The notes beneath the pieces are model-generated. The model was not told the DNA's origin, ran no database searches, and saw only the letters and a list, made by a program, of their open reading frames with translations. From the NCBI GenBank assembly GCA_022845955.1, contig AP025576.1, forward strand, positions 5,022,001 to 5,086,000: DNA of 64,000 bases, written 5' to 3'. The position numbers and the translations under genes were made by a program. Of the stretch, positions 1 to 7,058 are shown one piece after another. The DNA comes from Lachnospiraceae bacterium (GTDB taxonomy: Bacteria; Bacillota; Clostridia; Lachnospirales; Lachnospiraceae). Numbering within the stretch: the first letter of the stretch is position 1; every line of letters begins with the position of its first letter.

Positions 1-287
1 TTCCTCAAACTGGCTCAGGCAGTTCGCACAATTCCCGCAGTAATTCGCCCCGTATTCCCCAAAATACCGGAGAATATAATCCCGCAGGCATTCATTCGTA
101 AAGCAGTAGAAGGTCATCTTACGCAGCCGGTCCCGGTCCCTCTCCGTCACCAGATCCCTGGTGAGCGCATCCATCTCCTGGTTGTCCTGGTTATGGTCGA
201 TAAAGAACTGGTTCGTCACCACGTCCTGCCCGCCGTACAGCAGAATACACTCCGACGGTTCCCCGTCTCTGCCGGCCCTGCCGGCTT
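1..287 (-). pseudogene. recQ partial copy (5' part missing), runs off the left edge
   Basis: This stretch matches positions 5832-6118 of the intact recQ gene in this window with only about three differences by eye, so it is a recent duplicate. It covers RecQ residues of about 313-408, from the GRAGRDG helicase motif into the zinc-binding cysteines. Homology stops abruptly after base 287, and the 5' part of recQ (Walker A, DEAH) is absent. The remainder of the copy would lie left of the window. It cannot make a helicase. The sequence just upstream on the minus strand (288-310) is a second copy of the promoter-region repeat found before the AlbA_2 gene. Confidence 0.9.
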
Positions 288-310
288 GTGTCAAGTCAGT
301 GACAGTAAAT
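288..310. repeat. 23-bp direct repeat, left copy
   Basis: Matches 1908-1930 at 20 of 23 positions in the same orientation. It begins exactly where homology to recQ ends. It contains the dyad TGTCA-N6-TGACA and, on the minus strand, a TTGACA -35-like hexamer. The two copies bracket the AlbA_2 gene, so they may mark the ends of a cargo module. Confidence 0.7.
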
Positions 311-395
311 TATTTTGCAATTGCTAAATTTACCATTCTATTCTTTCTATTAATATCGTGCCAACTACAGTATTATAGCTTCAAGAAAATTCAGT

Positions 396-1838
396 TCATT
401 CATGACTGACTACCCACTTTCCTTTTCGGGAAGATCCTTCTCTTGATAAAAGATTTCTATTTTTCAAATCTGATATAATCCTTTTTACGGTTCTAACTGA
501 TACTTTCGACCGTTCTGCGAGTTCTCGTGTCGTAATTTCAGGCTCTTCATTTAAAATTCTTAAAATAACTTTTTCTAATCTATCAGGGTCACTTTTTTGA
601 TTATCGGTGACATTAGTGCCAACATTGATGCCATTATTAGTGCCACCTGGCATCGTTTGCTCTTGTTCGATAAATTCTAAGCCATAATTCAAATTTTTTA
701 AAATAACAAAAAAAGATGATCTGGTCGAAGTAAAAATGGGTTCCTTCTCAGGAACATAGTTATCCTGATGCTCGTAAGCTCTACAAATCTTACCTAATCC
801 ACTTCCCTGACGCTCCATATATCCTAATCTACCGAAAATGTCTGCAAGCAATGGATTTCTTCGCACGGAACTAACTGTGTTGATATCCAGATCCTGTATG
901 AAACTTCCATCTGGCATTCCACCCGGTGAATAGATTTCTAATCGATCATCAAAGATATCAATATGAACTTCACTGCCATTAACAAGATAATCCCGATGTA
1001 TCAGCGCATTAACTAATGCCTCAAATACACTATCTTCACTGTAATCCGGAAATTCCAGCCTTCCTAATGGCTGCTTTTTCCACATAGTTTTCATATTACG
1101 TTTTACAAAGGCAAATCCTTCATTCAGAAGAGTAATGAGGCTTCCGTTGAATTCCGTATGATCCAATGCATCCAGCAATCCACCACTCTTGTCTAAACCA
1201 TTCCATCTGGTACAAAATATACGTGACCACCAGATCGGAGATTCATCTGCGATAAGAGCGCCTGCATTCGTTAAATGTCCATTACTGTCCTTAATACCAA
1301 AAGACTCATACGCATTATCTGGCAAACTTTTGCCAGTCCAAACCTTATATCTCTCGCGGAGCTTGGTAAAAGAATAGTCATCAAACTGATAGGATGAAAT
1401 TTGGAAATCGTAGCTTGTATTCTTTCCCCTCATCACCAAACGCTTTAGTTCTGTCGGGCCGGCAATCACGCTCTCATTTCCAATTCGAATATATGCCTCT
1501 GTAACACCGTCCGCACTGTAATAATAGGGAGTTTCAGTTCCTTCCGGGACATGCACAAGGAGTAAATTTTTTTCATCCTCCGTCTTATAAAGCTTCATAA
1601 CAACTTCTGGAAACGGATAGATCCTCTCTTTTAGCTTTTGGCTGATAAATTCGGAGTCTGACCTGATATCACTCAGCCCAACTACTTCTTCTTCATTTGA
1701 TATGCCAAAAATCAATGTACCACCAGAAGTATTAGCGAATGCACTAATACTCTTTAACCAGCTTTTGGGCTTCTTTCGTTCAACTGCCTGTTTTTTGTCA
1801 TATTCTGTTGATTCTCCCAACAGTTCTTTCCACTCCAT
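396..1838 (-). CDS. AlbA_2 domain / HATPase (RecG-C-like) regulator-type protein
   Basis: 480 aa. The N-terminal AlbA_2 (Schlafen-like) nucleic-acid-binding domain (about 1-125) has the typical E-x-x-x-x-EYKK-like opening, FANTSGGTLIFGI and a G-rich turn. The middle (about 250-390) is a GHKL-type HATPase_c_4 domain with EALVNALIHRDY, IYSPGGMP and ERQGSGLGKI. The end (about 425-475) is a winged helix. Such proteins are usually annotated as ATP-binding transcriptional regulators, and some relatives occur in defence islands. The start is supported by GGAGG seven bases upstream of ATG. A TTGACA-N17-TATTTT promoter lies at 1886-1914. The gene is AT-richer than recQ and sits between two recQ fragments, so it looks acquired. 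Its actual target is unknown. Confidence 0.85.
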   Translation of the reverse strand: MEWKELLGESTEYDKKQAVERKKPKSWLKSISAFANTSGGTLIFGISNEEEVVGLSDIRSDSEFISQKLKERIYPFPEVVMKLYKTEDEKNLLLVHVPEGTETPYYYSADGVTEAYIRIGNESVIAGPTELKRLVMRGKNTSYDFQISSYQFDDYSFTKLRERYKVWTGKSLPDNAYESFGIKDSNGHLTNAGALIADESPIWWSRIFCTRWNGLDKSGGLLDALDHTEFNGSLITLLNEGFAFVKRNMKTMWKKQPLGRLEFPDYSEDSVFEALVNALIHRDYLVNGSEVHIDIFDDRLEIYSPGGMPDGSFIQDLDINTVSSVRRNPLLADIFGRLGYMERQGSGLGKICRAYEHQDNYVPEKEPIFTSTRSSFFVILKNLNYGLEFIEQEQTMPGGTNNGINVGTNVTDNQKSDPDRLEKVILRILNEEPEITTRELAERSKVSVRTVKRIISDLKNRNLLSREGSSRKGKWVVSHE

Positions 1839-1885
1839 ATACCAACCTCCATATCGCTTTATTTCTGCGGGTTATAAGCCTGAAA

Positions 1886-1938
1886 AAAATACATATATTC
1901 TCCTACTGTGTCAAATCGGTGACCGTAAATATTACGGT
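1886..1938 (-). promoter_or_regulatory. Promoter and operator-like palindrome upstream of the AlbA_2 gene, including the right direct repeat
   Basis: On the minus strand TTGACA (1909-1914) and TATTTT (1886-1891) are 17 bases apart. Directly upstream is a perfect palindrome ACCGTAA-ATA-TTACGGT (1922-1938). The 23-bp direct repeat (1908-1930) overlaps both. The layout suits autoregulation by the winged-helix protein encoded downstream, which is inference. Confidence 0.55.
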
Positions 1939-1998
1939 ACTTCTTCGTAACTAACACAATAAAAAAATTCCGCCTCTCCACGTATTATTCCAATAGTT

Positions 1999-2397
1999 TT
2001 ATCGTCTAATAATTTCTTCTGGCTCAGGTAACATATGTACCAGGGATTTATTCAAAAAAGCAATATAAGGAGGCACCCCTTCCTTTTTCGCCAGCTCCGC
2101 GCGCAGCCCCCGCAAAATTTCAAACAACTTCTCTTCCTCTTCCAGAATAAACTTCGATTTCCCGGTGAACTTCACCACTGCATACTCATCGTTCGTCACC
2201 GACAGATATTCATTCATCACCTGCCGCAGCTTATACGTCGGAGCCTTTGCAATCTCTGTCACCAGATCTCTGGTAAGCGGATACATCGAATAATTATCCT
2301 GGTTGTTGTTGATAAAAAACTGATTTGTAACCACATCCTGCCCGCAGTACAGCAGAATTCATTCCGCCAGTTCCCATCTCTGTCAGCGCGGCCGGGT
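1999..2397 (-). pseudogene. Decayed recQ 3' remnant
   Basis: An open frame of 111 codons (1999-2334) plus upstream matching sequence to about 2397 is homologous to RecQ. It carries VTNQFFI and LTRDLVTE, then jumps over the zinc-binding region to YKLRQVM, VTNDEYA and a shortened HRDC domain (EKLFEILRGLRAELAKKEG). At least three internal deletions relative to the intact gene keep the frame. Homology fades upstream at the same point as in the copy at 1-287. It is clearly older and more diverged. It lacks all ATPase motifs and is not expected to work as a helicase. Confidence 0.85.
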
Positions 2398-2463
2398 TGC
2401 ATCATATCCATGCCAGCAACTTATTACAGTATTTACTGCATTTTTTATCATCCCATTTGCAAT

Positions 2464-3201
2464 TCAAACATTATCCACGATAGCCTCTAACACAGCTTTA
2501 ACAGCATTAGGAATTGCCTCCCCGCTCCACCCTAAGAGCCATTCCTCATCTTCAAATACATCCGATATAATATAAATCGCCGATGCGGCACATTCACGAT
2601 ACTTTGCAATTGTAAATAACCCTACACCTTCCATTTCTACGCATAACGCCGCTTTATTTCTATATGAAAGCACCTGTCCTACGGTTTCATGATACCCAGC
2701 ATCAGTTGTCCATGTTTTTCCGCAAGACACCGCTGTCTGATTCTGTTTCATTATATTTACTAACTTATCCGAAAGTTCAGAAGAAGATTCTATATACTTA
2801 TAATCAAATCCATATAATCGAGCTACAGCAGTATCATTATATGCCCCTTTTGTTATTACAATATCTCCAGGATTCATGTTTTCTTGTAATCCACCTGCAT
2901 ACCCTACATGAATCAACTCTTTTACTCCACAAGCAATCAAATCTTCTGCTTGAGTTGCAATAGCAGGTGAACACATCATTGATTTTATAAATCCAACCAT
3001 TGGATTATCCTTTAATACCCATAACTTTCCTCCGATTGGAAACCCATACTCTCCACAATTAAGGCTAACCATATAATCAAATATATCATCAGCCAAAAGG
3101 TATACTCTGTTAGGTACACATATTTCATTAATATCAATACCTTTATTTTTCAATTCAATTGTCATAAGCTTACGTGGATCTGTTAAAACTTTATCTATCA
3201 T
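2464..3201 (-). CDS. Nucleoside phosphorylase (PNP/UDP family)
   Basis: 245 aa, the usual length for the PNP_UDP_1 family, which splits nucleosides with phosphate to base and ribose-1-phosphate. Visible family marks are the phosphate-loop segment GYAGG (residues 100-104), the nucleoside-binding EMEG (189-192) and SDVF (213-216), which holds the catalytic Asp. The upstream AGGA is a weak ribosome binding site. The gene is AT-rich and lies between a recQ remnant and a truncated DUF1016 gene, so it is probably cargo of the recQ hotspot. A salvage role is the default. Stand-alone PNP-fold proteins also occur as effectors in defence loci, but nothing here proves that. Confidence 0.85.
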   Translation of the reverse strand: MIDKVLTDPRKLMTIELKNKGIDINEICVPNRVYLLADDIFDYMVSLNCGEYGFPIGGKLWVLKDNPMVGFIKSMMCSPAIATQAEDLIACGVKELIHVGYAGGLQENMNPGDIVITKGAYNDTAVARLYGFDYKYIESSSELSDKLVNIMKQNQTAVSCGKTWTTDAGYHETVGQVLSYRNKAALCVEMEGVGLFTIAKYRECAASAIYIISDVFEDEEWLLGWSGEAIPNAVKAVLEAIVDNV

Positions 3202-3272
3202 ATTTTATTTTTCCTATAAATGTCGATTTCTCGCTCAGTTACCTTCTCAGTCAAATACCTGAAGTTGTTAAA

Positions 3273-3740
3273 CTACGTGTCAATGTGTTTTTCATAGGTT
3301 TGTGCTTCGATAAAATTTGTAAGTATCCTTTTGATCCGGCCATATCTTTTTGTCATTTGGATATAAAATTCTCGTTGCAAATCATCTTTACATTTTTCCA
3401 TAATGACGATATTATTACTCCAACTGATTTCTCGCACCAATGGCGCGAGTTTTTCAGAATTTCGATAACTCAGATAAAAATTACGCATTCGCCAAAGGTT
3501 CGCAGATGAATATCCTTTGGCTCCAGGAAATTCCTTCTGTAATTCTTTTGATAAGATATTGACGATGGACTTACCCCAGCTTTTTTCTTTTTGCTGTTTA
3601 AAAATTTCTTCACCAATTTCCCAATATAAGTTTATCGTTTCTGAATTTATTTGTCTTAAAACCTGAAATTGCTTTTGATGTATTAAGTCTTTGATTTCAT
3701 TCAGTAAAGACTCATACTCTAGGTTTGCTAATTCATCCAT
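3273..3740 (-). pseudogene. DUF1016 (YhcG) N-terminal fragment, nuclease domain missing
   Basis: 155 aa matching the N-terminal DUF1016_N domain: LYWEIGEEI, YSSANLWRMRNFY, LAPLVREISWSNN and REFYIQMTKRYG. Full YhcG proteins are about 340 aa, with a C-terminal PD-(D/E)XK nuclease domain. Here the frame ends at HIDT and stops just where that domain should begin, and the next 70 bases do not continue it. An AAAGGAGC ribosome binding site precedes the ATG. A 19-bp palindrome lies immediately upstream of that site, and a near copy lies inside the gene. I treat it as truncated, though the N-terminal domain may still bind DNA. Confidence 0.8.
3431..3449. repeat. Intragenic palindrome, copy 1 (in DUF1016 fragment)
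   Basis: CTCGCACCAATGGCGCGAG has 9-bp arms with one mismatch around a central base. It encodes part of LAPLVRE on the minus strand. The same dyad recurs at 3760-3778. Confidence 0.7.
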
Positions 3741-3759
3741 ATATATTGCTCCTTTAAAA

Positions 3760-3778
3760 CTCGCGCCACTGGTGCAAG
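3760..3778. promoter_or_regulatory. Palindrome upstream of the DUF1016 gene, copy 2
   Basis: CTCGCGCCACTGGTGCAAG is a 9+1+9 dyad with two mismatches. It lies about 20 bp before the start codon and next to the ribosome binding site. It repeats the dyad inside the coding region. It could be an operator or a translational hairpin. Confidence 0.55.
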
Positions 3779-4670
3779 ATATAATGCAGTAATTGTATGA
3801 AAAATGAAATAAGGCAGCATAGTATTAACTATTTACATAGGATGAGATCCAACATTGTGCTGATTTTCCAAAATTCACAAGACATTGTTAACGTAACGTA
3901 TCCTCAATGGGCAGGCAGTAAACCTCCTCCTGAACGTCTATTAGCTGCAAACAGCCATTTCTGTCAGGGAGCCGGCCCTGGTGGTATAATCTTTTTCATT
4001 GATACAAGATACCTATTTCAGTTTTTATGCTACAAAACTTCCATTGAAAAATACTAAATCTTTTTATACATCTAAACCGATATTATACATTATGGAATAT
4101 ATGGCACATTGTCTTCATTAAATAATCCGTTATATATTATCCTATAGTATAGTTTTCCGTATAAGTCACTGCAATATTGTGTACCCTGATATTCATGTGC
4201 TGTATAAAAATATTCATTGTTGTTTTTTCGTGCATATTTAGTAATACTTACAAACAACCCCCTAACGTCGCTTTGAATAAATTCATCTGCTGGAAATACA
4301 AAATAGTTATATGTTCCATCTCCAAGATCACTTTCATACCCGAAATTTTTAGCACTTATAACTGATATTATTTCATTGGTAGCATCTCCTTCAATTTTAA
4401 TAAATAGTCGGTACTTTATCTATAACATTCAACTTTCTGTTTATCAAATTCTATTTTCCAGTTTAACAAGCATAAATTTACTGCCCTGCTTTTATTAGTA
4501 TAGCATATAGAAATAAGCAAAACCATTGTTTTAAAGTTACTAATGCTAATGATTTTTATGTGCTTATGTTATATCATTTTTTTATCCCACATATAATCCG
4601 AACACTATTTGAGCAACAAAAAACAAAACGTTGATATTAGTATAAAATAATAAAATCTAATACAGGTAAA
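3779..4670. other. AT-rich gap between DUF1016 fragment and recQ
   Basis: Apart from the frameshifted gene at 4090-4473 I see no convincing gene here. The short open frames at 3797-4057 and 4177-4365 on the plus strand lack family features and good ribosome binding sites. The base composition is clearly more AT-rich than recQ and the genes to the right. Confidence 0.6.
4090..4473 (-). pseudogene. Small unknown gene broken by two frameshifts
   Basis: From 4419 down to a TAA at 4090 there are 109 open codons without any in-frame start. They have protein-like composition (for example GDGTYNYFVFPADEFIQSD). Upstream, two further short frames can be joined by single-base shifts to an ATG at 4471-4473: MLVKLEN, then EFDKQKVECYR. 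I do not recognise the family. The intact product would be about 125 aa. It is AT-rich like its neighbours. Confidence 0.55.
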
Positions 4671-4705
4671 GCCCTCTCCACTGTCACCAAACCAGTCGAA
4701 AGGGC
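4671..4705 (-). terminator. Hairpin downstream of recQ
   Basis: On the minus strand GCCCTTTCGACTG pairs, with two mismatches, with CAGTGGAGAGGGC across a 9-base loop. A weak T stretch follows. It lies just past the recQ stop codon. Confidence 0.55.
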
Positions 4706-4718
4706 CCACACATCTTCC

Positions 4719-7058
4719 TTATTTACCACCATTCTCCGCCGTCAGCAGCAGCTCCACAATCCCTCTCTGCGCCTCCTGCGTATAATAAAACACCTCATAC
4801 TCATTCCCCTTCGAACTAATCCGTGTTTCCGCTTCTATCCCAAACTCCGTCCCATATTCCGTTATCTTCCGCAGCGGCATCCGGTTGACGAATTTCAATT
4901 CAAACAGCCCTTCCTCCAGCAGCATCTGCTCCACCGCCTTTATTGTCAGACGCTTCGTCGTGCTCTCATCCCGCAAATCATTCATCTGCCCAACCAAATC
5001 ACTCAGAGACATCTTTTCCGCATAATGCAGCTGGGCGGCGATCTCCTCCGTCATCACAAATTCCGTCTTATTCTTCTTCCCTGACGAATTCCTCACAACA
5101 GACTTTTCCCCGCTCTTCTCCGCATCCCCTTCATAATCCTGTACCACATCATAATCCAGACTGGAAAACTCCACCGCTCCCAGACTGTCCGGAGCATCCG
5201 TCTTTCCATGCTCTTTATTAAATTCGATCACCTTCTCCAGGAACGCTTCCCCATATTTCTCATACTTAAATTCCCCCACTCCCGACACCGAAAGCATCTC
5301 ATTCTTATCCACAGGCCGTATCACACACATATGTACCAGCGATTTATCCGAGAACACAATATAAGGAGGCACCCCTTCCTTTTTCGCCAGTTCCGAACGC
5401 AGCCCGCGCAGGACTTCAAACAGCTTCTCATCCTCTTCCTCCAGTTCAAAGGCCGCCGCTCCCCGGCTCTTCTTTCCTTTCTTTTCTCCCGCCACTTTCG
5501 CCGGATGCTCCTGTTCCTTCGCCATCTTCATGGTCACCGTCTCATCCTCTTCCAGAATAAGCTTAGACTTCCCGGTTAGCTTCACAATGGCATATTCATC
5601 ATTGGTAACGGCCAGATATTCCTGCAGCATCAGATAATTCATCACCTGCCGCAGCTTATAAACCGGCGCCCCGGACAGTTCTCCGTAATGAGGATTCTCA
5701 TCCATCCGGTACTGCCTGATTTTCGCCGTATTCGCCCCGTGCACCGTATCGATGATCACATTCGTTCCATACCTCTGCCTGCACGCCAACACACAGCCAA
5801 TCAACGCCCGTGCGATCTCCGTCACATCCACTTCCTCAAACTGGCTCAGGCAGTTCGCACAATTCCCGCAGTAATTCGCCCCGTACTCCCCAAAATACCG
5901 GAGAATATAATCCCGCAGGCATTCATTCGTAAAGCAGTAGAAGGTCATCTTACGCAGCCGGTCCCGGTCCCTCTCCGTCACCAAATCCCTGGTGAGCGCA
6001 TCCATCTCCTGGTTGTCCTGGTTATGGTCGATAAAGAACTGGTTCGTCACCACGTCCTGCCCGCCGTACAGCAGAATACACTCCGACGGTTCCCCGTCTC
6101 TTCCGGCCCTGCCGGCTTCCTGATAGTAGCTTTCCATATTTTTAGGCATATTATAATGAATGACGTACCTGACATTGGATTTATCAATTCCCATTCCAAA
6201 GGCATTGGTAGCCACCATAACGGGATACCTGTCATAAATAAAATCGTCCTGATTCTGTCTCCTCTCGCTGTCACTTAACCCGGCATGGTACCGGGTAACC
6301 GGAAATCCATCCCCGCGCAGCCGGTCGCAGACCTCCTCCACGACTTTTCTGGTCAGGCAGTAAATGATCCCGCTTTCCTCTCTGTGCAAATCCAGATAGT
6401 TCTTCATGGTGGCATATTTATCCCTGGGAGTCTGTACCCCGAAATACAGATTCGGCCTGTCGAAGCCGGTGGTCAGCACTTCCGGGGACTGCAGCATCAG
6501 AATGTCGATTATATCATCCCTTACTTCTTTGGTAGCCGTGGCTGTAAAAGCTCCCACCACAGGCCTTTTGGGAAGCCGGTTAATAAAATCCATTATTTTC
6601 AGATAACTGGGCCGAAAATCCTGTCCCCATTGGGATACACAATGGGCCTCATCCACGGCAACCAGGGATATATCGGCATCCTGGGCAAAATCCAGGAATT
6701 CCTCGGTAACCAGCCGTTCCGGAGCCACGTATATAATGGGATAGCGGCCGGCTTTGGCGTATTCCAGCGCTTTCCTGTACTGTCCCGGTGTAAGGGAACT
6801 GTTGAGATAAGCGGCATGAACGCCCATATTGTTCAGCGCTCCCACCTGATCCTTCATTAAGGAAATCAGAGGGGAGATAACCAGTGTGATGCCTCTTAAC
6901 ATCAGGGCCGGTACCTGGTAACAAATGGATTTTCCCGCACCTGTGGGCATAATTCCCAGTACATCCTGTTCCCGCAGTATGCTGTCAATCAGCAGTTCCT
7001 GCCCGTCGCGGAAATTATCGTATCCAAAATATTGTTTCAGCACCTGAAATTTATCCAT
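4719..7058 (-). CDS. recQ: ATP-dependent DNA helicase RecQ
   Basis: 779 aa, longer than E. coli RecQ (about 610). The order is: SF2 helicase core with MPTGAGKS (Walker A, about 37-44), DEAH in [13 protein letters not shown], and GRAGRDGE (about 315-322). The zinc-binding and RQC domain follows with its Cys set (CLRDYIL...CGNCANC), then an HRDC domain (about 545-620) and a C-terminal helix-turn-helix extension with a charged linker. It unwinds recombination and repair intermediates 3' to 5'. GGAGG stands six bases before the ATG. Two partial copies of this gene's middle and end lie at 1-287 and 1999-2397, and both begin at the GRAGRDG codons. The 3' portion of this copy may therefore have been supplied by an inserted element. 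Confidence 0.97.

Follow-up and report, generated by a model that had tools for sequence, protein, structure and literature searches.

The window analysed here is a 64,000-nucleotide stretch of DNA from a gut bacterium of the Lachnospiraceae (GenBank assembly GCA_022845955.1, contig AP025576.1, positions 5022001-5086000), part of a complete one-contig genome of 7.29 Mb, and it contains the helicase gene recQ together with two partial copies of it. We consider it probable that recQ serves here as a site-specific accretion hotspot, at which units composed of a gene 3′ half, cargo and a 19-bp end rebuild their target on entry, likely by means of a triplet of large serine recombinases. The phenomenon reaches far wider than recQ and also involves spmA-like and polysaccharide deacetylase genes.

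A sequence-only reading of the window had reported two partial recQ copies with a shared breakpoint near residue 313, and base-level alignment confirmed both points, revealing one breakpoint and a common end sequence. The left copy is the entire recQ 3′ half, running from codon ~313 to 2 bp beyond the stop codon; it extends beyond the left edge of the window, and -1114..287 aligned with 4717-6118 at 96.3% identity over 1403 columns. The "about three differences" first ascribed to it hold at most for bases 1-287, since the full copy carries 51 substitutions (12, 7 and 32 at codon positions 1, 2 and 3), which fall in 31 synonymous and 13 non-synonymous codons, together with a frameshifting 1-bp deletion. 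Because 32 of the 51 differences lie at third positions, the working and displaced 3′ halves appear to have diverged mainly as functional genes. The middle copy (1999-2397) is decayed, with fragments at 75-87% identity and internal deletions. The breakpoints of the two copies coincide within a few bases at codon ~313, in helicase motif VI, and their likeness extends 27 bases beyond the recQ boundary into non-recQ DNA (141-314 vs. 2253-2425). A whole-gene tandem duplication, the origin of the left copy that would have told against insertion, is ruled out, as the copy starts at codon ~313 and has no 5′ half. Leftward of the window edge the copy runs as far as the recQ stop, and inspection by eye of the open reading frames (ORFs) in the next 12 kb revealed no integrase.

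The non-recQ DNA at the breakpoint is a 19-bp end, which reads TGTCAYTRMCTTGAYACAA in gene direction and directly precedes the left and middle copies as well as five further copies in Eisenbergiella tayi and Hungatella effluvii. Seven recQ junctions in three species (two in the window, three in E. tayi and two in H. effluvii) start at the same codon behind this end. In gene direction, with a slash at the boundary, the junction bases are TTTACTGTCACTGACTTGACACA/AGCCGG in the window and TTACTGTCACTGACTTGACACA/ACCCGG in E. tayi, where two more junctions are present. Both H. effluvii recQ pieces carry the end sequence, the pattern search having covered two genomes of that genus. The core of the end is a short inverted repeat, TGTCA-N6-TGACA. 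A slightly longer end pattern matched the window genome in only two copies without mismatch and in one with three mismatches. Because three end sequences are present in the window, it probably holds three units (Table 1).

Table 1. Coordinates of the recQ gene, its partial copies, the end sequences and the cargo genes in the window.
Feature	Position	Strand	Basis or remark
Intact recQ	4719..7058	-	ORF; DEAD, Helicase_C, RQC and HRDC domains
Putatively imported recQ 3′ half, codon ~313 to stop	4719..6118	-	Duplication extent
Displaced recQ 3′ half	1..287, extending left to window -1114	-	Alignment
End TGTCACTGACTTGACACAA belonging to the last unit; adjoins the displaced recQ 3′ half	286..304	-	Alignment of ends
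End copy without recQ after it (3′ half presumably lost)	1906..1924	-	Same at E. tayi C16 2248
Decayed recQ 3′ half of an older unit	1999..2396	-	Alignment
Decayed end TGGCATGGATATGATGCAA (gene direction)	2397..2415	-	Compared with five other end copies
Short recurring sequence downstream of recQ or recQ pieces	4490..4550	.	Similarity matches
SLFN_AlbA_2 + HATPase_c_4 + winged helix (helix-turn-helix) protein, 480 amino acids	396..1838	-	Domain search
PNP_UDP_1 phosphorylase-fold protein	2464..3201	-	Domain search; E. tayi C16 and C12 homologues at 91-92%
DUF1016 N-terminal piece (DUF1016_N), truncated; PADLOC candidate PDC-S02	3273..3740	-	Domain and PADLOC models

The distribution of the end was evaluated in other genomes. 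With three mismatches allowed, the end pattern was found in 6 of 397 genomes of the family, the window's own included, and the reversed-pattern control in none. An exact scan of GTDB genomes, which does not detect diverged ends and possibly omits the genome of the window itself, yielded 94 sites in 89 stretches, mostly from Lachnospiraceae; from base counts alone, ~8 chance matches are estimated. Eighty stretches are titled, and 53 of these belong to Lachnospiraceae by title or genus, 23 to other or unnamed Clostridia or bacteria, and one each to Muribaculaceae, Caulobacteraceae, Streptococcus and Flavobacterium, with genera assigned to the families in which we assume them to be placed. According to tblastn, the end is followed by an spmA-like 3′ part at 62 of the 94 sites, by a polysaccharide deacetylase at 11 and by recQ at 2. 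Four of the remaining sites match spmA by pattern only and 15 are without assignment; six of these look spmA-like by eye (L079, L085, L097, L101, L108 and L117) and three look like chance (L078, L119 and L141). We take the gene to be spmA, a naming for which the support is a Gate domain below cut-off (E 0.0002-0.002) and the annotation of distant relatives as "nucleoside recognition domain"; the deacetylase identity was confirmed on two remnants. At L069:12972 (Parablautia intestinalis), L087, L159 and L150, the end is followed by other genes or non-coding DNA, possibly further targets, and RloA/RloB-like proteins and an Hsp20 gene were seen by eye near L069. A phage origin of the unit was rejected, as the two viral-contig matches are alike and without a target remnant.

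The reading frame continues across the junction at 70 of 75 assigned sites, which are in frame with TTG-ACA-CAA of the end and contain no stop. In one spmA-like example, the codons ACG CCG GCG GGG CTT AAG of the intact gene are replaced after the end by ACA CAA GGC GGG CTT AAG, so that the protein reads TQ-G-G-L instead of TP-A-G-L; in recQ, spmA-like and deacetylase genes the junctions read CACAA/NCxGG or CACAA/GGxGG. Because the junction codons align, the frame is preserved and the common part begins at or near GG. The recQ (GCC GGC) and deacetylase (GCA GGC) sites have GCN GGN in common. At most junctions the end contributes TTG ACA CAA, and the displaced 3′ halves therefore form new open frames beginning M-T-Q, some of them long enough for gene annotation.

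Ends also occur in series. L167 contains one intact spmA followed by four ends at intervals of 3.1-3.9 kb, and an spmA 3′ half was detected after each of the first three; L168 contains an intact spmA and four ends; and L169, L170, L171, L172, L173, L174 and L178 contain two or three ends each. Several displaced 3′ halves are still long and similar to the working ones, as would be expected if they formed a silent reservoir from which RecQ or SpmA is varied by recombination, in the manner of phase variation. We regard this as highly improbable, given that other 3′ halves are decayed or truncated, that they are positioned behind unrelated cargo, and that we know of no selection for C-terminal variation of RecQ or SpmA.

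The recQ loci of close relatives were compared, as the sequence-only reading had proposed; three more genomes with matches fell outside this comparison. E. tayi (G012), which is placed in one genus with the window genome, shows the same flanks and different inserts: intact recQ, two ABC-transporter-like proteins (by eye), a recQ remnant and a GH95 island. The island follows the left copy in the genome of the window and the remnant in E. tayi, at 96.1% identity over 13.7 kb. G004, of the same genus, carries a 102-bp recQ remnant, and seven other recQ stretches of that genus (L043-L049; six genomes, 3.7-15 kb) showed no partial copy. These loci support the proposal that an element enters recQ at one codon with its own 3′ half and displaces the old half downstream. 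The order of events first suggested, two successive insertions in this genome, fits badly, because entry next to the gene predicts that the farthest copy is the oldest, whereas it is the freshest (96.3%, one frameshift). Instead, a composite of 3′ half, DUF1016 gene, PNP gene, old remnant and AlbA_2 gene probably entered recently as one piece and displaced the native 3′ half. In E. tayi C16 (L041, 6190 bp), homologues of the PNP, remnant and AlbA_2 stretches are found in window order. Both ends of C16 lie within one recQ stretch, ~137 bp apart, and C12 continues through an intact recQ to other cargo, a picture that either an excised circle or a loop in the assembly would produce. The short sequence at 4490..4550 recurs at E. 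tayi C12 51554-51620, C12 13369-13426 and C16 5324-5380 and, 30 kb leftward, at window -30203 to -30089. Because recQ-downstream sequence repeats there and in E. tayi, the hotspot may span at least 30 kb.

Sequence identities suggested that 3′ halves travel between genomes. Between the window and E. tayi, recQ identity is 83.4% for the 5′ half and 90.2% for the 3′ half, taken as codons 315-645, and against seven other relatives the two halves differ by at most 2.5 points in either direction. Identity to E. tayi rises from 83.0 to 89.7%, a step equalled by 1 of 300 column shuffles. The single change point that fits best falls at nt 900-908 of the gene, with a 2-log-likelihood interval of 761-980; the breakpoint itself is nt 940. 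Moreover, the right-flank genes are 81-85% identical, the cargo 92-94% and the GH95 island to the left of the hotspot 96%. DNA from codon 313 leftward, as far as the compared pieces reach, thus seems to have moved between species, and the working recQ is read as a chimera whose 5′ half would come from the host and whose 3′ half would be imported. The same kind of comparison was made across eight spmA-type loci for a cassette that encodes a tyrosine-recombinase-like protein and an AAA ATPase (28 pairs; lengths 246-387 nt, gaps left out). In the pair L070 and L168, identity is 82.7% for the host 5′ halves, 99.1% for the 3′ halves linked to the cassette and 99.6% for the cassette ATPase genes; the near-identical 3′ half is fused to the working spmA in L070 and is a displaced piece in L168.

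These data bear on two explanations that need no site-specific enzyme. The first, in which the recQ 3′ end was duplicated locally in tandem and the copies later decayed and took up unrelated genes, agrees with partial copies that lie beside their parent gene in the same orientation. It has very little to recommend it, because the copies differ mostly at synonymous sites, the 3′ half is closer to E. tayi than the 5′ half, and the non-recQ end common to other genes speaks strongly against it. Homologous recombination only, by which circular or linear DNA with a recQ 3′ half would be taken up through a single crossover anywhere in the 1.4 kb of homology, is unlikely but deserves more weight: the 3′ halves are long enough for RecA-type exchange, no recombinase domain was found in the recQ arrays, and the two ends of E. 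tayi C16 resemble a loop through homologous DNA, an observation that is suggestive only. However, Campbell-type exchange does not produce breakpoints at a single codon behind one 19-bp end, as seen across many species and in three kinds of gene. Homologous recombination could move units once they are formed.

Site-specific entry calls attention to the recombinases near the ends. Upstream of the end, the spmA elements L071, L093, L121, L127 and L169 each encode three consecutive large serine recombinases on one strand, as do L170 (same locus as L082), L173 (L096) and L178 (L122); in some cases a small gene intervenes. The deacetylase ends of L175, L176 and L177 are preceded by a diverged triplet (31-44% identity). 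The distance from triplet to end in spmA and deacetylase elements is 5 bp to ~4 kb; one of the three proteins was tested and has Resolvase, Recombinase and Zn_ribbon_recom domains. Among the 66 sites with enough sequence, 14 have a same-strand serine recombinase no more than 1.6 kb upstream of the end. In G417:C36 206040-211100 (L177, L191), the deacetylase-type serine triplet stands 5 bp from the end. In Sporofaciens musculi, a MobA_MobL relaxase, a TraG P-loop ATPase, an NlpC/P60 protein and a topoisomerase lie within 66 kb upstream of the triplet, whose third recombinase appears split. These conjugation genes may belong to another element, as they are interspersed with a second serine recombinase and the sequence examined stops short of the left boundary; such genes are absent from the window. 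The serine triplet of E. tayi (G012:C21) and the serine recombinase clusters of G004 were rejected as candidates for recQ, having end lookalikes with 4 or 5 mismatches and no recQ junction. G004 contains 35 large serine recombinase matches, with several clusters of three or four, in one 6.1 Mb genome.

A second candidate mover is the tyrosine-recombinase-like protein encoded after spmA in many cassettes (L070:13530-14612, L167:4303-5283, L174:9489-10502 and others). One family of this fold gave 36 matches (25 distinct sequences) in spmA-type loci, with different effectors (AAA ATPase, HipA-like and RhuM proteins) as cassette neighbours. A predicted structure of only fair quality (mean pLDDT 73) gave Cre as the best Foldseek match (E 1.9e-5); it also resembles XerA and, more weakly, the phage regulators SroF and MrpR. 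Although the fold and the recurrence of the family would suit a mover, it is very unlikely to act in place of the serine triplet. In the alignment, judged by eye at what we take to be the catalytic motif positions, conservation is lacking at the second Arg/His motif and, in one subfamily, at the final Tyr; furthermore, no match was found in the recQ arrays scanned, and the weaker SroF and MrpR matches suggest a regulator. On this structural model, the protein may be a regulator of the cassette. A group II intron or an IS200/IS605 end was also considered for the hairpin-like end; no such gene was noticed to recur, by eye and with no model run, and one isolated IS200-type ORF was seen by eye in H. 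effluvii.

We propose that the unit would exist as a circle of target gene 3′ half, cargo and 19-bp end, in which the end abuts the 3′ half. Recombination would take place at a GCN-GGN (Ala-Gly) codon pair within the target, which in recQ lies inside helicase motif VI, with GG as the probable crossover dinucleotide. The host 5′ half would thereby be joined to the 3′ half of the unit, and the host's own 3′ half would be displaced downstream behind the 19-bp end. Because the host 5′ half joins the 3′ half of the unit, the target gene would stay whole, and repeated entries would build arrays. The sequences themselves show how the unit is composed, its common end and breakpoint, repair in frame, arrays, 3′ halves exchanged across species and triplets located upstream of the end, and from these we infer the circle, the GG crossover, the catalytic role of the triplet and any triplet specific to recQ. 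The likely enzyme is the large serine recombinase triplet carried by autonomous relatives in spmA and polysaccharide deacetylase genes; small units without a recombinase, those in recQ included, would be passengers moved in trans, by a recQ-specific triplet if one exists, or relics.

Several observations weigh against the proposed mechanism. The claim that no integrase is visible near recQ held as far as tested: the closest PF07508 large serine recombinase domains (E <= 1e-8) are more than 500 kb from the window recQ. At the same threshold, no PF07508 match was found in the recQ arrays of the window, E. tayi and H. effluvii or anywhere in the H. effluvii genome, so a recQ-targeting element with a recombinase was not found in the arrays of these three species, and even among the sites in general a close serine recombinase is limited to the 14 of 66 noted above. 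No circular junction was observed. The crossover cannot be exactly placed from sequence, because both partners are the same gene to the right of the boundary, and the E. tayi pieces at C12 6521, 16245 and 45977 stop short of the junction and are not usable. For the deacetylase target, repair is unsupported because the G417 element has no second deacetylase 3′ part in 46 kb of joined sequence. Near-identical 3′ halves were found in only 1 of the 28 cassette pairs, and in 2 the 5′ halves resemble each other more than the 3′ halves do, as would be expected if cassettes also swap 3′ halves over time. Finally, E. tayi recQ compared with four relatives differs by 1.0 to 4.7 points in the opposite direction (in the extreme comparison, 5′ 74.3% and 3′ 69.6%); because one comparison runs 4.7 points the opposite way, part of the recQ identity step could reflect uneven constraint.

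Domain searches confirmed the cargo that had been named between the copies, an AlbA_2 protein, a PNP-fold enzyme and a DUF1016 piece. TIR and ADP-ribosyltransferase-type domains were found in the H. effluvii cargo, and HipA_C, HEPN, RhuM, SIR2 and NACHT domains in other arrays. Eight of ten proteins reached a PADLOC model at 1e-5. This proportion is no rate, because the ten were selected by eye for a likely role in defence and because L177:2423-3505, one of their number, sits past the deacetylase remnant, outside any proven unit. Radical-SAM proteins and ABC transporters were also seen by eye.

The units resemble several known systems. Staphylococcal and enterococcal cassette chromosomes (SCCmec and ECC; ccrAB/ccrC) use large serine recombinases, a target in a conserved housekeeping gene and a circular intermediate, have several attR copies in some elements, and carry variable cargo including defence genes (PMC6222049). 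To that extent, the housekeeping-gene target, the variable cargo with defence genes and, at spmA and deacetylase, the large serine type of recombinase are shared. In contrast, the targets here are recQ, spmA-like and deacetylase genes, not rlmH; there are three recombinases, not one or two; and the units carry a long gene-restoring 3′ half (~0.3-1.4 kb), not a shared ~50-bp att. The TATCATAA att core lies within -30..+60 of only 2 of the 94 ends, which does not indicate an rlmH-type SCC site, and SR3 of L071, the one protein tested, scored 77.9 and 72.3 bits with the CcrB and CcrC models, far below their cut-offs of 900.

Streptococcus integrative and conjugative elements (ICEs) with serine integrase triplets enter the coding genes mutT, traG and hsdM site-specifically (PMC4701971). 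They share three serine recombinases in one orientation relative to the target gene; unlike these ICEs, which disrupt the target and leave 2-8 bp repeats, the units here repair it and displace a whole 3′ half. A triplet at the element end was found for spmA and deacetylase elements, not for the recQ units of the window. Tandem accretion of cis-mobilizable elements (CIMEs; ICESt1/fda) involves recombinase-less units with att ends that stack beside autonomous relatives, and whole CIME composites can move together (PMC5704250). The recombinase-less small spmA units beside triplet elements at the same gene are CIME-like, whereas no integrase-bearing partner element is known at recQ; unlike CIMEs, the units carry part of the target gene, often have only one to three cargo genes, and occur several in a row.

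In integron arrays, small cargo units lie head to tail behind a fixed entry point and share an end with a short inverted repeat. The units described here likewise stand in line behind one entry point with a common end sequence, and differ in that entry occurs in a housekeeping gene, which is rebuilt. Inspection of the ORFs by eye, with no IntI or attC model run, showed no integron integrase beside the arrays. More tentatively, and with somewhat less than even confidence, these loci can be viewed as an integron-like capture platform that Lachnospiraceae would have made from housekeeping genes, with a conserved Ala-Gly codon pair as the permanent port, cassettes that rebuild the gene by their own 3′ half, and conjugative serine-triplet elements that would provide the recombinase in trans for a pool of small defence cassettes with one common end. 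Among titles and abstract openings, subscription papers and preprints lying outside the scope, recQ or spmA was not described as a port for such units. In the part of the gut element survey available (PMC6907783), sporulation genes are reported as cargo, and spmA is not among them.

Taken together, the phenomenon is real and well supported as a relative of serine-recombinase cassette accretion, of which we infer the enzymatic step. Defence genes cluster in islands, and the way in which individual genes accumulate there is often unclear. In the present case the joint can be seen directly: port and end are fixed, the host gene is rebuilt, and the entries can be counted. The unit model explains puzzling partial copies of recQ and spmA and shows an element that uses an important gene as its target without breaking it. 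The 19-bp end also provides a search handle for new defence and toxin-antitoxin cassettes in gut Clostridia.

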